Part shown: positions 18,830-55,893 of the stretch, in pieces
Layout: each line of letters starts with the position of its first letter
How positions within the stretch are numbered: the first letter of the stretch is position 1
NCBI RefSeq assembly: GCF_021233435.1
Contig: NZ_CP089468.1
Location: forward strand, 2,294,001-2,358,000
Reading direction: 5' to 3'
From: Halobacterium noricense
Lineage (GTDB): Archaea > Halobacteriota > Halobacteria > Halobacteriales > Halobacteriaceae
DNA: 64,000 nt
Program-made: the position numbers and the translations under genes
Notes under the pieces: generated by a model
Databases searched by the model: none
The model's input: the letters and a program-made list of their open reading frames with translations, nothing else
What the model was told of the DNA's origin: nothing

Positions 18830-18944
18830 GAAAGCCCTCGGCCCGCTCGCGGTCGTTCGCTCGCCGCGCGCTTCGTTCGCTGCGCTCACTGCAGTGCTTA
18901 CGTCGCGAGACGACCAGGCAAGCGCGAGCGCGCCTCGCCCTTTC
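18830..18944 (-). repeat. Degenerate copy of the 119-bp structured element
   Basis: Read on the - strand this region shares the core GCAGTGCTTACGTCG complement and the GAAAG...CTTTC ends with the elements at 23854 and 48824. Its arms still pair partly (GCTCGCG with CGCGAGC). It lies past the 17879 regulator gene. The similarity was judged by eye and is weaker than between the other two copies. Confidence 0.45.
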
Positions 18945-18951
18945 GATCCGC

Positions 18952-22862: not shown

Positions 22863-23771
22863 ATGGCTACCGAGACCGACCTGGAGGACTTGCGGCGCGG
22901 CAGCGACCTCGTGAAACGCGGGTTCGCGAAGATGCAGAAGGGCGGCGTCATCATGGACGTGGTGAACGCCGAGCAGGCGAAAATCGCCGAGGAAGCCGGC
23001 GCAGTCGCCGTGATGTCCCTGGAAGCGGTGCCGGCGGACATCCGCAAGCGCGGTGGCGTCGCGCGGATGGCCGACCCCGCCGACGTCCAGGAGATTATCG
23101 ACGCGGTCTCCATCCCGGTGATGGGGAAGTCCCGCATCGGCCACACGAAGGAGGCCGAGATTCTGGAGGCCGTCGGCGTGGACATGATCGACGAGTCCGA
23201 GGTGCTGACGCCCGCCGACGACAAGTACCACATCGACAAGCGCGAGTTCACGTCGCCGTTCGTCTGCGGCGCGCGCAACCTCGGCGAGGCGCTCCGGCGC
23301 ATCGACGAGGGCGCGGCGATGATTCGCACGAAGGGCGAGGCCGGCACCGGCGACGTGAACCAGGCCGTCCACCACCAGCGCACCATCAAGAGCGCCATCC
23401 GCGAACTCGAAGGGCTGACCTACGAGGAGCGCGAGCACTACGCCCGCGACATCGAGGCGCCCGCGGAACTCGTCCACGAGACCGCCGAGATGGGGCGGCT
23501 CCCGGTCGTGAACTTCGCGGCGGGCGGCATCGCGACGCCCGCGGACGCCGCCTTGATGATGCACCACGAGTGCGACGGCATCTTCGTGGGTTCGGGCATC
23601 TTCGGCGCAGAGGACCCCGAGTCGATGGGCCGCGCCATCGTCGACGCCGTGAACAACTGGGACGACCCGCAGCGCCTCGCCGAGATTTCGGCGAACATCG
23701 GTTCCGGCATGAAGGGCGAGGCGAACGTCGATCTCCCCGAAGAAGAGAAGTTGCAGGGCCGCGGGAACTGA
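22863..23771 (+). CDS. pdxS: Pyridoxal 5'-phosphate synthase subunit PdxS
   Basis: A 302-residue PLP synthase barrel that builds vitamin B6 from ribose 5-phosphate, glyceraldehyde 3-phosphate and ammonia. Key segments are [28 protein letters not shown] with an active-site lysine, the phosphate-binding [15 protein letters not shown], and [16 protein letters not shown]. The glutaminase partner PdxT is not in this window. An AATTAAG box A 28 bp before ATG suggests a leaderless transcript. Confidence 0.97.
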
Positions 23772-23853: not shown

Positions 23854-23972
23854 GGGACTGAAAGGGGCGGCTGGCTTCGGGAAGCACGGCGACGTAAGCA
23901 CTACAGCGACCGAACGAAGTGAGGGAGCGAAGCGCACAGCGAGCCGCGCGACCGAAGCCAGCCGGGGCTTTC
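23854..23972 (+). repeat. 119-bp structured intergenic element, copy A
   Basis: It begins GGGACTGAAAGGGGC and ends GGGGCTTTC. A 13-bp perfect stem pairs CGGCTGGCTTCGG (23868-23880) with CCGAAGCCAGCCG (23952-23964). Copy B at 48824-48942 is the same length and has the same stem with two swapped base pairs. The interior shares AAGCACT, GACCGAACGA, GTGAGGGA and CAGCGAG. It stands between pdxS and a convergent membrane-protein gene. Confidence 0.75.
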
Positions 23973-24018
23973 GAGAAAGCGTCGTTCGCTGGTGTCGCTG
24001 CAGTGCCGTCGACGAAGC

Positions 24019-24765
24019 CTAGAAGCCGCCGTAGCGGATGTACACCATCGTGGCGACGACGGCGAGCTGGAAGACGCCCTGGATGCCGCCGAGTTTGGCG
24101 TTGCGCATGCCGATGTCGGCGATGACCTGGGTGTCGGGGTGCTCGGAGGTCATCTGCTGGTACATCCGGACTTCGCCGGGCATCAGCACGCCGAACCCGA
24201 GCACGTTGAGGACGGCGACGATGGCGAGCGCGACGACGAAGACGGGTTCGGTCCACCCGAAATCCGGGAGGGTAGTGGCGAGGAACGCGAGGGAGCCGAC
24301 GAGGACGACGCCGAACCACGCCTGCCAGCGCCAGTCGCCGAACGCGTCGAACTCCCAGCCGACGAGCAGCAGCGTCGGGACGAGCGCGACGAACGTGAAG
24401 ATGGCGAGCCAGGCGTAGGCGTGCGAGAAGAGCCCGGGCAGGCGGAGCGCGAGCGTGATGCCGCCGGCGATGGTCACGGCCGACAGCGACGGGAGGAGGA
24501 ACGACGTCTTCGGGGTGAGTCGCTGGAAGACGCTCGCGCGCTGTTCGACGTCGAGGCCGCCGAGGACGGGGCCGAGCACGAGCGCGATGAAGACGTCGAT
24601 GCCGGTCCAGAGGATGCCGGCCATGACGTGGACGTACGTGTGATGGACGACGTTTGCGAACGTCGTTGCGTAGACGAGCGCGAATAGCGGGATGCCGACG
24701 ACGGCGACGGCGAACGCCGGGTTCGCGCGCTCGGCGAGCCCGCGAATGGTGCCGCGGATGCTCAT
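24019..24765 (-). CDS. Multi-pass membrane protein (CopD/DUF2269-like), unknown role
   Basis: A 248-residue protein with about seven membrane helices. Conserved-looking polar residues within helices are seen in HHTYVHVMAGILWTGIDVFIAL, in SVFQRLTPKTSFLLPSLSAV and in EVRMYQQM. The pattern (His and Trp-Thr-Gly in a helix, then a cytosolic basic loop) resembles the heme- or copper-handling CopD/DUF2269 group, but this is a weak match. The start at MSIRGTIRGL (24765) removes an unlikely Cys/His-rich leader. It is divergent from leuA. Confidence 0.65.
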   Translation of the reverse strand: MSIRGTIRGLAERANPAFAVAVVGIPLFALVYATTFANVVHHTYVHVMAGILWTGIDVFIALVLGPVLGGLDVEQRASVFQRLTPKTSFLLPSLSAVTIAGGITLALRLPGLFSHAYAWLAIFTFVALVPTLLLVGWEFDAFGDWRWQAWFGVVLVGSLAFLATTLPDFGWTEPVFVVALAIVAVLNVLGFGVLMPGEVRMYQQMTSEHPDTQVIADIGMRNAKLGGIQGVFQLAVVATMVYIRYGGF

Positions 24766-24919
24766 CTGACCACCGCAGGGGTGCCGCAAGTCCGGAGTCG
24801 ATGCGTTCTGGGTGTGGCCTGTCGGTGTTGCACACTGACCACGTTTCAATCACGTATCATAATCGTTACGCAGGCCGCGAAGGGGTGTGGTGAGCGCGCG
24901 CACGCCGCGGCCCCTCCAC

Positions 24920-47006: not shown

Positions 47007-47795
47007 TTAGTTCACGTCCTTCCGCCGGAAGTACAGTTGACTGCCAGCGACGAGCAGCAGTGTCGCGGCCACGAGGATGGCTGCACCGGCGACATCGTAG
47101 GTGCCGTCGACGAGAATCGCGGTCGGATCGAAGTACCGCATCGGCGCGACTGCGCCGGCCCACGCGTAGTCCGTACTCGTGAGCAGCGATTCGAGCAGGA
47201 ACAACCCGAACACCGTCGCCATCGCCGCGCGCTGGGCGACGCTCTCGCGGTCCGCGAGGACGCTGAACGCCAGCCCGATTGCCGCGCACGCGAAGAGGTA
47301 CGGGAGCGAGAGGAGGTGAACCGCGACGAGGTCGACGGTGCCGATTGGGTAGCCGATGGCGCGCGTCGCCACCCACGTCACCGCGGCGACGACGACGTTG
47401 ATGAGGAGGACGCCGGGGACGAGGGAGAGGAATCGCTCGGCGACGAGGCGGGCGCGCGAGACGGGCAGCGAGAGCAACACGTCCATGCGGCCGCTTTCGA
47501 CGTCGCCGGAGACGAGGGAGGCGGCGCTGTACGCGAGGTAGAGGCCGAGGAGGATGACCCACGCGAACTGGTAGAGTTCGGTCGCGAGGAACCCCTCGAT
47601 GGTGTTGAACGCGCGCAGGCCGAACGCCTCCACGAACACCGGCGGGAGCGCCTCGATGTACTCCTCGAGGTCGAGGTTCCCGGTGAGCGACGGGAAGAAC
47701 GCGGCGTACATCGCGCTGAATGCGGAGAGGCCGACCGAGAGCGCGAGCGCGCCCTTCACGCGCTTTCGAGCGCCGTAGGCAGCAATCTCAAACAT
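47007..47795 (-). CDS. ABC-2 type exporter, membrane subunit
   Basis: A 262-residue membrane protein with six helices and the ABC-2 features: an N-terminal amphipathic MFEIAAYGARKRVKGALAL, SGRMDVLLSLPVSRARLVAERFL in the middle loop and a C-terminal helix ending in YFRRKDV. It pairs with the ATPase upstream, overlapping by 8 bp. The substrate (lipid, drug, peptide) is not evident. Confidence 0.88.
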   Translation of the reverse strand: MFEIAAYGARKRVKGALALSVGLSAFSAMYAAFFPSLTGNLDLEEYIEALPPVFVEAFGLRAFNTIEGFLATELYQFAWVILLGLYLAYSAASLVSGDVESGRMDVLLSLPVSRARLVAERFLSLVPGVLLINVVVAAVTWVATRAIGYPIGTVDLVAVHLLSLPYLFACAAIGLAFSVLADRESVAQRAAMATVFGLFLLESLLTSTDYAWAGAVAPMRYFDPTAILVDGTYDVAGAAILVAATLLLVAGSQLYFRRKDVN

Positions 47796-48687
47796 CGTCG
47801 TCACCCCCGTAGAAGTCGAGGAAGACGTCTTCCAGTGGTGCCTCCTCGACGTCGAGTTCCTGCAGCGGATAACGGTCGAGTTCGTCCACGAGCGCGTCCA
47901 CGTCGCCCGTGAACGTGAACGAGACGCGCGTCGCGCCAGCGAGAGGCCGGCGCGCGAGGTCCGAGACGCCGGGAATGTCGAAGGCCTCGGACGGCACGTC
48001 GCCGGCGACCCGAGTGCGGACGAGTTTGCCGCTGCGGTCGAGCAAGGTCTCGACGTCCTCGACGGCGACGAGTTCCCCGTCCCGGAGGACGGCCACGCGG
48101 TCACAGATGCGTCGCACCTCGCTGAGGACGTGACTGGAGAACAGGACGGTGACGCCGCGCTCGCGCTCGTCGCGCACGAGCTCGTTGAAGCGGTCCTGCA
48201 GGAGCGGGTCCAGTCCGGACGTCGGCTCGTCGAGGACGACGACGTCGGGGTCGTGCATGAACGCCTGTACGATGCCGAGCTTCTGGACGTTCCCCGTGGA
48301 GTACTCGCGCACGGGACGGTCCAGCGGCGGTTCGAACCGGTCGCGGAGGTCGGCGCGGCGGGAGCCTCCTTTCAGCGACTCGTGGAGGTCCAGCACTTCG
48401 CGTCCGGTCGCTTGCTCGTCGAATTGGGGGTTGCTCGGGAGGAAGCCCGTGTCCGCGAGCGCGTCGAGGCGCTGGCTCTCGACGGTGGTGTCGTGCCCGA
48501 GAATCGAGACGGTCCCCGAGGTGGGTGCCTGCATCCCGAGGAGCGTGCGGAGGGTCGTCGTCTTGCCGGCGCCGTTCGGCCCGAGGAAGCCGAACACTTC
48601 GCCGGCTTCGACCTCGAAGGAGACGTCGTCGACGGCGACGAGGTCCCCGTAGCGCTTGGTGAGGTCGCGGAGTTCGATGGCGGCCAT
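47788..48687 (-). CDS. ABC-2 type exporter, ATPase subunit
   Basis: A 299-residue ATPase with Walker A GPNGAGKTTTLRTLLG near residue 38, Walker B VVVLDEPTSGLDP and switch HVLSEVRRI. The signature reads YSTGNVQKLGIVQAF rather than LSGGQ, a variant common in archaeal ABC-2 exporters. The last 75 residues are an extra C-terminal domain found in this group. It leads the two-gene operon. Confidence 0.9.
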   Translation of the reverse strand: MAAIELRDLTKRYGDLVAVDDVSFEVEAGEVFGFLGPNGAGKTTTLRTLLGMQAPTSGTVSILGHDTTVESQRLDALADTGFLPSNPQFDEQATGREVLDLHESLKGGSRRADLRDRFEPPLDRPVREYSTGNVQKLGIVQAFMHDPDVVVLDEPTSGLDPLLQDRFNELVRDERERGVTVLFSSHVLSEVRRICDRVAVLRDGELVAVEDVETLLDRSGKLVRTRVAGDVPSEAFDIPGVSDLARRPLAGATRVSFTFTGDVDALVDELDRYPLQELDVEEAPLEDVFLDFYGGDDDV

Positions 48688-49040
48688 AGCGGACAGACGC
48701 ACACCCCGACCAAGAAGATTCGGCCCGAGAACAGCCAACAGCGACCCGACCAGCCGGCAACGGGTGGACTGAGCGAACGCTGCGCGTTCGCGAGGGTCGG
48801 AAGACGAACGCAGTGAGTCTTCCGGGACTGAAAGGGGCGGCTGGCTACGCGAACCCCGACGACGCAAGCACTGGACCGAACGAGTGTAGCGAGTGAGGGA
48901 AGCGCGCAGCGAGGCGCGGGAGCGTAGCCAGCCGGGGCTTTCTGGACGTTCCCGACGTGGAGCTCCGAGGAACGAACACGACGCCAATCCCCAGGCGGCG
49001 TTCGCGGGGCTTAACCGGTCGGCGGGCCAACCGCGTGGTA
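48688..49040. other. Repeat-bearing gap between exporter and DUF5815-like gene
   Basis: This 353-bp gap holds no gene. From 48798 to 48824 there is an 8-bp inverted repeat CGGAAGAC/GTCTTCCG, directly joined to the 119-bp element copy B. The last 100 bp are the upstream region of the next gene. Confidence 0.55.
48824..48942 (+). repeat. 119-bp structured intergenic element, copy B
   Basis: Same ends as copy A at 23854 (GGGACTGAAAGGGGC and GGGGCTTTC) and exactly the same length. The stem pairs CGGCTGGCTACGC (48838-48850) with GCGTAGCCAGCCG (48922-48934). Compared with copy A, two base pairs are changed on both sides, so pairing is kept. Confidence 0.75.
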
Positions 49041-49586
49041 ATGACCGAGCCGCGCGTACCGGGCGCCGAGGACGACGACGCGTGGGTGGACCTCCCGTGC
49101 GGGGAGCAGGCTCACGTGAAGGACTTCGACTTGGGGATGCGGGAGTACGAGTGCTCGTGCGGGGAGACGCACGCGGTCGTGATGGACATGCATCCGCCGT
49201 CGCGGTTCGTGCCCGAAGACATCGTCGCGGTGTTGAAGGAGGCAGTGACGCCCGCGCCCGACGACGAGTTCGAGGAGTTCGGCACGGCGCACTTGATGGG
49301 CGCGGTGATGGAGCAGCTCCCCGAGGACATCGTCGCCGTGGACGAGAGCGAGAACGGGAGCGTCGGCTACGCGCTGCTGTGGGTGACGGACCTCGAAGCG
49401 CGAGAACTCCACGAGGTCGTCGTGGAACTGGTCGTGGAACTGATGGACCACGCGGTGAGCCACGCCGACGACAGCGGCACCGAGAGCGAGTTCGAGCAGC
49501 AGATGCAGGAGTTCGACGTCAGCGAGTTCGTGGACGCCTACCGCGCACAACGGGACTTCGAGGACGAGTACGACACGCCCGCGTAA
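49041..49586 (+). CDS. DUF5815-like haloarchaeal protein
   Basis: A 181-residue acidic protein. The first half carries DLPCGEQAHVKDFDLGMREYECSCGETHAVVMDMHPPSR-type sequence with three cysteines and a histidine that could hold a zinc (CGEQAH, CSCGETH). The second half is helical. I recall the family as DUF5815, found in haloarchaea, function unknown. The last 31 bp are repeated 105 bp downstream. Confidence 0.65.
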   Translation: MTEPRVPGAEDDDAWVDLPCGEQAHVKDFDLGMREYECSCGETHAVVMDMHPPSRFVPEDIVAVLKEAVTPAPDDEFEEFGTAHLMGAVMEQLPEDIVAVDESENGSVGYALLWVTDLEARELHEVVVELVVELMDHAVSHADDSGTESEFEQQMQEFDVSEFVDAYRAQRDFEDEYDTPA

Positions 49587-54813: not shown

Positions 54814-55893
54814 ATGGAAGTGCGCCGTACTGTCCCCGTTACGCTTGACGTGGACAGTGGCGACGACGTACTTCTCGATACACCGTAGACGAGTTTCTGT
54901 TCGCGGCCCAATACGTGGTTGACTACGCCTTCCAAGGCGACTATGTCACCACAAGCAAGGGACAACTCCAAGACGAAACTTACGACGACGTGTGCGACCA
55001 GACACCTCTAAACACGGGACTGGTTCAGAACGCCCGGAACAAAGCTGCTGAAGCGTGTGAGAGCGTCGTTAAACGGTGGAAACAGGGCAAGAAAGCATCG
55101 AAGCCGCGTATGACTTCACCACACGTCGTCTACGACCATCGCACCGCCACGTTCTACGACGACTACGTATCCCTCGCTACTACTGACGGTCGTGTTGAAG
55201 CCGACTACGTGCTACCCGCTGAAGATAGTGATACACCTCACGCGCAATATATGTTCTCCGACGACTACGAGGTGACTGGAGCAGAGCTACATCGAAAGCA
55301 CGGCGAGTGGCAACTTCACGTCCACTGCAAGAAGGAAGTGGAGTCTGACACGTCGGAACAGACAACACCCGAGAACGGAACGGTTCTCGGGGTTGATCTC
55401 GGCGTGAACAGCCTTGCCGTCACCTCGACGGGTACGTTCTGGACGGGCGACGAATTCGACCACTGGCGGCGGGAATATGAGAACCGCCGTGGCGACCTAC
55501 AAGAGTGTGGGACGCGGTGGGCACACGAGAATATGCAGTCAGTTGGTCGGAAAGAGGAAGGCCGCAGAGTACGGTATCACGGTGGAACAGGTTGACTCGG
55601 AGAATACGTCACGTCGTTGCTCTACGTGTGGATTCACCCACCCGGATAACCGGGATAGTGAGGAGTTTGAGTGCCTGAAATGCGGCTACGAGAATCACGC
55701 CGACTACAATACCGCGAAGAACATCGGTTTGCGGTATCTTCGTCGTAACCAAACCGGGGACGACGAAGGCGCACCCTTGGGCGTGTGCTTGCACAGCGGG
55801 ACGTTGAACGTGAACGGTGAGTATGATTCACCTGCCGAGGATTCGGCCAGAGCGGGAGTCCATGCTGAATCTCACCGCTTTAGCGGTGGGTAG
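54814..55893 (+). pseudogene. tnpB: tnpB (RNA-guided nuclease family), frameshifted and internally deleted
   Basis: Three pieces read in three frames. Piece 1 (from ATG 54814) stops at 54888 after [15 protein letters not shown]. Piece 2 (about 54885 to 55596) carries [13 protein letters not shown], the basic [13 protein letters not shown] and the RuvC-I motif [16 protein letters not shown]. Piece 3 (about 55550-55893) has the zinc finger CSTCGF...CLKCGY and Ruv[20 protein letters not shown]. The stretch between pieces 2 and 3 that should hold the RuvC-II Glu is missing. The protein cannot be an active nuclease. The right-end RNA scaffold would overlap the 3' end. Confidence 0.85.
55873..55888 (+). 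repeat. Right-end hairpin of the IS element
   Basis: CACCGC-TTTA-GCGGTG, a perfect 6-bp stem next to the element's right edge. In active tnpB elements this region is part of the guide RNA scaffold, and the bases just beyond the end serve as guide; here those bases are the end of carA. Confidence 0.65.

Follow-up and report, generated by a model that had tools for sequence, protein, structure and literature searches.

Hairpins exchanged at palindromic docks: a haloarchaeal repeat that probably represents a non-autonomous, SMR-A-like mobile insert

Introduction

What kind of element is a 119-bp intergenic sequence that recurs in a haloarchaeal genome with its closing stem changed on both sides and paired in each copy? 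Two such sequences, copies A and B, lie in the window analyzed here (the whole 64,000-nucleotide stretch, part of a Halobacterium genome designated G000), and the initial annotation offered a dispersed structured RNA, a REP-like unit, or a small non-autonomous mobile element as explanations. Short repeats housed in palindromes have been described in Haloquadratum walsbyi, where the SMR-A repeats (HqIRS42, HqIRS43, and HqIRS55) are about 110 bp long, carry inverted terminal repeats, reach up to 54 copies, and are inserted within near-terminal palindromes of palindrome-associated transposable elements (PATEs) and of IS605-type transposons (Dyall-Smith et al., 2011; PMC3119063). PATEs are IS605-related and have variable ends of 20–50 bp; the three SMR-A families were reported to lack sequence similarity to one another; and identical positions carrying distinct or opposite-orientation repeats were named SwitchRepeats (PMC3119063). 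The mobilization of SMR-A was termed enigmatic (PMC3119063), and how these repeats move is a question that can now be tested in tractable haloarchaea.

A search of the open-access literature, by sequence and by terms, found no earlier description of the present repeat except in that paper. What is new here is its order-wide spread, its single conserved fold, the exchange of occupants between species, and, in the tail next to it, a three-base rhythm with CTAG. The behavior of the A/B element is that of a very small mobile DNA insert, not that of a conserved RNA gene.

Results

Copies A and B

Both copies are exactly 119 bp long with identical ends, at the positions originally reported (Table 1). 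The 13-bp closing stem, CGGCTGGCTTCGG/CCGAAGCCAGCCG in copy A and CGGCTGGCTACGC/GCGTAGCCAGCCG in copy B, was likewise found as described, with two compensated differences (T:A to A:T and G:C to C:G) that leave it paired in both. RNA folding gave z values against shuffled sequence of -6.2 (A) and -4.2 (B), and for both strands of either copy the predicted folding, whether RNA or DNA, is far superior to that of shuffles; the resemblance of A and B and their fold are not due to chance. A third, more divergent copy in the window was overlooked initially; small palindromes precede it and a tail follows, reaching a CTAG at the next gene.

Table 1. Coordinates of the repeat copies, their parts, and their surroundings, counted from the first nucleotide of the window.
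Feature	Position	Strand	Remarks
Copy A, dock feet and hairpin occupant	23854–23972	+	113.1 bits, E 7.3e-24 (covariance model)
Copy A 5' foot	23854–23868	+	GGGACTGAAAGGGGC
Copy A 5' stem arm, 13 nt	23868–23880	+	folding
Copy A 3' stem arm, 13 nt	23952–23964	+	folding
Copy A 3' foot	23964–23972	+	GGGGCTTTC
Copy A tail	23973–24022	+	hypervariable, 3-nt rhythm, CTAG at its end (24019–24022)
Copy B, dock feet and hairpin occupant	48824–48942	+	106.2 bits, E 3.5e-22 (covariance model)
Copy B 5' stem arm, 13 nt	48838–48850	+	folding
Copy B 3' stem arm, 13 nt	48922–48934	+	folding
Copy B tail	48943–48995	+	hypervariable between species, reaches conserved DUF5815 promoter region
Two small palindromes directly abutting copy B	48766–48823	+	GGACTGAGCGAACGCTGCGCGTTCGCGAGGGTCGG; GGAAGACGAACGCAGTGAGTCTTCC at 48799–48823
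Third, more divergent copy	18830–18949	-	GGATCGAAAGGGC ... GAGGGCTTTC; G000:C1:2312817-2312950, 60 bits
pdxS (SOR_SNZ family), upstream neighbor of copy A	22863–23771	+	
276-aa membrane-protein-like ORF, convergent with pdxS	24019–24849	-	no Pfam match
ABC transporter ATP-binding protein, divergent neighbor of copy B	47788–48687	-	
DUF5815 protein, divergent neighbor of copy B	49041–49586	+	

Family Size and Spread

Eight exact occurrences of the 15-base end were counted in the genome, and 21 with at most one mismatch (reversed control, zero). A covariance-model search for further copies, as envisaged in the initial annotation, found matches genome-wide and order-wide: a model built from 14 copies of G000 yielded 50 matches in that genome, 28 of 40 relatives had matches (range over all relatives, 0 to 81 copies per genome), and across the order 141 of 195 sampled genomes and 49 of 66 genera were represented in a survey whose filter capped the count per genome. 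A pattern scan placed the family in Haloarcula, Halonotius, Halorarius, Natrinema, Halorussus, Haloarchaeobius, and others. The viral and phage collections searched held no match, and plasmid matches were few (ten haloarchaeal plasmid records). Rfam, in which no family matches the 64-kb window at gathering score, apparently lacks this repeat, whose single conserved fold recurs in most sampled genera of an archaeal order. A match in Desulfobacteraceae (L083) failed the stem test and was discarded as chance.

Anatomy and Covariation

Each hairpin is enclosed by a palindrome, GAAAG-GGG...GGG-CTTTC, here called the dock. From the outside inward there is a GAAAG/CTTTC foot, which prolongs the helix beneath a GGG/GGG internal loop, then the stem, variable and about 13 bp long, followed by short helices carrying the conserved strings GACGYAAGCACYGCAG and GAGGAGCRCAGCGAG, and a variable tip. 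Element lengths are mostly 98–118, with 108 the commonest, and the foot palindrome surrounds nearly every hairpin. Several copies of one genome (L201-L208 in G027, where 81 family matches were counted) have the compensated foot CGAAG/CTTCG in its place, a lineage variant.

Over the 13-bp stem, 95.3% of pairs in 208 copies are Watson-Crick. Among 150 aligned copies from other genomes, in an alignment that was fitted to the model and leans toward structure, 93.5% of pair cells pair, and both sides have changed in 1050 cells as against 344 in shuffles (none of 500 shuffles as high); a MAFFT alignment of 14 copies gave the same picture (81 against 29). An impression from those 14 copies that wobble pairs are nearly absent from the stems was contradicted by 209 copies. 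On the plus strand G.T pairs exceed A.C pairs in the stem (57 against 17 in 208 copies). This excess suggests that it is the plus strand that folds, but a strand bias in C-to-T mutation could produce it too.

Head-to-head pairs about 31 bp apart account for 108 of the 192 copies with called neighbors, and the spacer between such docks is dyad-like (e.g., ACCGGTTGGTCAGCCGGT). Docks without a hairpin, GACTGAAAGGGGCCGGGGGCTTTC and similar, were found in other genera (L096, L105, L109, L136, and L165) and may be empty docks or deletion products; in Halobacterium, no clean empty dock (ACTGAAAGGGGCTTTC) was present within two mismatches. Target duplications at the copy borders, a possibility raised in the initial annotation, were looked for around A and B and none was found. 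GGGG(C) flanks the hairpin on both sides in nearly every copy, and a target duplication is indistinguishable from this part of the dock itself.

Placement Relative to Genes

With genes called by a simple caller trained on family loci, none of 192 copies overlaps a gene. For genes pointing away, the start codon follows the 3' end of the element at a distance of 80–119 nt in 92 of 133 cases, most often at 90–99; for facing genes, the 3' end lies mostly 40–60 nt past the stop codon. Copies thus face starts and stops, in convergent and divergent gene pairs alike. The interval to start codons is very tight, and the element comes to lie immediately outside the expected promoter. Such spacing is not what random insertion would give; purifying selection could produce it, as could a choice of target or trimming through deletions.

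Exchange of Hairpins at Orthologous Sites

The hairpin at site A (pdxS) is found in G000, G006, G008, G009, and G010 and is absent from several other Halobacterium species; that at site B (DUF5815) is found in G000, G001, G002, G004, G010, and G012, with a remnant in G011. Between the five species occupied at site A the hairpins are 0.64–0.80 identical and the flanking DNA 0.89–0.95; random pairs of copies from different places have a mean identity of 0.67 and reach 0.79 at the 95th percentile. The DUF5815 proteins encoded at site B are 100% identical in G000 and G010, which also share the adjoining palindromes, yet the hairpins of these two genomes are 0.72 identical there. Occupants can also be inherited, since G010 and G012 carry the same hairpin at this site (0.93).

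Two further comparisons caught hairpins in altered states. Site B of G004 holds the copy-B hairpin of G000 with unchanged arms and an inverted loop, and near C1:6200-6450, within a 3-kb orthologous block, the hairpin in the right dock of G000 is found in the left dock of G004, 99.2% identical over 119 bp. Several near-identical hairpins are joined to unrelated tails. Docks, in short, persist at orthologous sites while the hairpin is replaced.

These observations bear on the initial claim that covariation implies selection on the folded form. Because hairpins at the same site are swapped or inverted as units, covariation comes largely from whole-hairpin exchange, with different self-complementary inserts taking up one dock, and with occupants replaced whole, compensated differences are expected without point-by-point RNA selection. 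The claim was therefore too strong, but part of it stands, in that the G.T excess may reflect a strand-specific constraint and hints that one strand's folding remains relevant. Whole-hairpin exchange at fixed docks can produce covariation in a repeat, which is a caution for RNA discovery pipelines.

The Phased Tail

Past the 3' foot lies hypervariable, non-coding sequence in which one position of every three tends to be a pyrimidine (0.67, versus 0.45 and 0.43 at the other two), following a YRN pattern; none of 2000 random-phase controls was as strong. CTAG is enriched 16-fold at 25–65 nt from the foot, with 52 of 57 occurrences in one phase, and an in-phase CTAG is present in 51 of 209 tails and so is not universal. 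At copy A the motif also includes the stop codon of the minus-strand gene facing the element. Haloarchaea generally avoid this tetranucleotide, and a widespread orphan methylase targets it (PMC6471742). The phased tail that contains it is a second concrete puzzle. Tails differ between orthologues. The dock's near-terminal position is judged from this variable tail.

Where tails occur in tandem arrays, the unit length is a multiple of three in 14 of 17 arrays; exact or near-exact 45-bp arrays of foot plus tail were seen at L112, L108, and G040:C1:1916064-1916282 (Haloarcula rara and Haloarchaeobius). Three readings of the tail were set aside. No single frame is open across all tandem arrays, and among stop codons only TAG within CTAG is enriched, as would not fit coding sequence; a guide RNA was not borne out by a Haloarcula tail array, which matched only other tails of its own genome; and an upstream peptide fused to the next gene was inconsistent in frame.

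Discussion

A Probable Two-Layer Mobile System

At the level of sequence comparison, the family and its fold, the docks with and without hairpins, site-by-site replacement, inversion, and the dock swap are established. We consider it on balance probable that A and B belong to a non-autonomous mobile system with two layers, SMR-A-like in PATE-like hosts, each copy being a dock that holds a hairpin. The outer layer would be a short, PATE-like intergenic element in which a core/spacer is joined to one or two near-terminal palindromes and to a hypervariable tail, some 40–60 nt long and often ending in CTAG, its dock having the form GAAAG-GGG-(CCGG)-GGG-CTTTC. The inner layer would be an SMR-A-like short mobile repeat of about 85–100 nt, a long hairpin at the center of that palindrome. 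The dock would remain fixed at its genomic site, and the hairpin could be lost, inverted, moved to a neighboring dock, or replaced by another, with exchange perhaps proceeding via a folded single strand or by recombination between the conserved feet and an enzyme presumably acting in trans. The hairpin is most likely a non-autonomous insert exchanged at palindromic docks by enzymes supplied in trans, although we infer both the intermediate and the enzyme.

Mobility is supported by presence and absence between species at sites A and B, and by a dispersed, intergenic distribution with high and patchy copy number; among the three options first proposed, it is the small non-autonomous mobile element that the evidence supports. 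The stereotyped spacing to start codons and the lack of a clean empty dock in Halobacterium count against a mobile insert. Linkage to IS605 is weak: of 39 TnpB matches in the genome only one has a copy nearby (L001), the six Y1 transposase matches are all farther than about 5 kb from any copy, and G008, G009, and G012 have many copies and no Y1 match.

The best match among known systems is SMR-A, to which anatomy and behavior correspond closely in a comparison made by description, so that the element is termed SMR-A-like, a candidate member of that class. Both are about 110 bp, a length that leaves no room for a transposase gene, and have prominent inverted terminal repeats; both occur in tens of copies (50 in this genome, 0–81 in relatives) inside a palindrome; and the different or inverted hairpins found here at the same position recall SwitchRepeats. 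The present family differs in that one conserved fold and foot extend across 49 of 66 sampled genera and that exchange is seen between species. The outer layer resembles PATEs in being short and without a transposase, with seemingly near-terminal palindromes, a putative hypervariable end, and, in those tails that have an in-phase CTAG, a candidate for their short conserved terminal oligonucleotide, but its docks are often paired head-to-head, its tail has the 3-nt rhythm and CTAG, and IS605-type genes are not enriched beside copies in Halobacterium.

Alternative Explanations

The main rival is ectopic gene conversion, by which immobile repeats would have their hairpins overwritten through homologous recombination between the feet and core motifs of dispersed copies, arm-to-arm template switching keeping the arms complementary and flipping the loops. 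Haloarchaea are polyploid and recombine readily, exchange ends near the conserved feet, and loop inversion between identical arms is what such template switching would yield. Homology at the feet, however, amounts to only about 15 and 9 bp, no donor at least 88% identical to the A or B hairpin was found among the own-genome copies compared, and presence and absence between species together with dispersed spread still require an insertion mechanism. As a full account we regard gene conversion as possible though doubtful; it may be a route of exchange even if insertion occurs by transposition.

It is unlikely, in our estimate, that the docks are archaeal integron-like exchange sites at which a trans-acting recombinase or single-strand transposase reads the folded plus strand at the feet and swaps hairpins; the 3-base-phased tail with CTAG would then be a nucleoprotein-binding part of the site and not decay. 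Integron attC sites share conserved feet, a variable hairpin, and possible folded-single-strand exchange, a resemblance of principle only, and differ in that no cassette gene is present here.

A dispersed structured RNA or transcript-level regulator, transcribed from the plus strand, folding, and acting on the adjacent gene or in trans, would account for the strong conserved fold with its covariation, the plus-strand preference for G.T over A.C (57 against 17), and the stereotyped distance to neighboring genes. Such a role sits poorly with the exchange and inversion of hairpins at a given site, with copies that face starts and stops in convergent and divergent pairs alike, and with a distribution as patchy as 0 to 81 per genome. 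Inspection of the spacer revealed no obvious haloarchaeal TATA box, and the window has no Rfam match. We judge this explanation quite improbable.

Least probable, and by a reading that holds only for one sub-family, the hairpin would be cargo inside IS6 terminal repeats, spread as an IS6-family MITE by the IS6 transposase. The sub-family comprises eleven recently amplified copies of this genome (L038-L048) with common flanking sequence and, in most, IS6-related ends (GGYRGTGTTCAGATAAG ... CTTATCTGAACACTRCC); 8-bp target duplications mark L041, L042, and L047 (CCGGCGAG, GTTCGCGT, and CTTGCTGG), the same ends are carried by a 697-bp element encoding an IS6-family transposase, and similar ends occur in Halonotius duals. 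The ends, duplications, and 697-bp element indicate that IS6 picked up and spread some copies. The likeness to the haloarchaeal IS6-family MITE stops there: even by a loose pattern such ends are on only 31 of 209 copies, neither A nor B has terminal inverted repeats or target duplications of IS6 type, and hairpin exchange at fixed docks is not accounted for by IS6 ends. A REP/BIME unit served by a RAYT (Y1) enzyme, suggested by intergenic hairpins in high copy number and often in inverted pairs with a linker, fails the defining tests, for the hairpin is about three times longer, the foot is GGGACTGAAAG and not GTAG-type, and none of the six Y1 matches in this genome flanks a copy.

Other Repeats and Gene Fragments

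The 697-bp IS6-family element appears autonomous (L225 1501-2197; G000:C1:745438-746134) and is flanked by an 8-bp duplication, GCTATATT; its end sequence has about 77 matches in the genome, many of them as short MITE-like pairs. The pair of small palindromes abutting copy B looks like a separate, nested small repeat: it is present at site B in G010 and G012, absent from G002 and G004, and also precedes other copies in the genome (L001 and L012). Elsewhere in the window, positions 55552–55725 (plus strand) hold a TnpB (Cas12f1-like_TNB) gene fragment within a 161-aa open frame.
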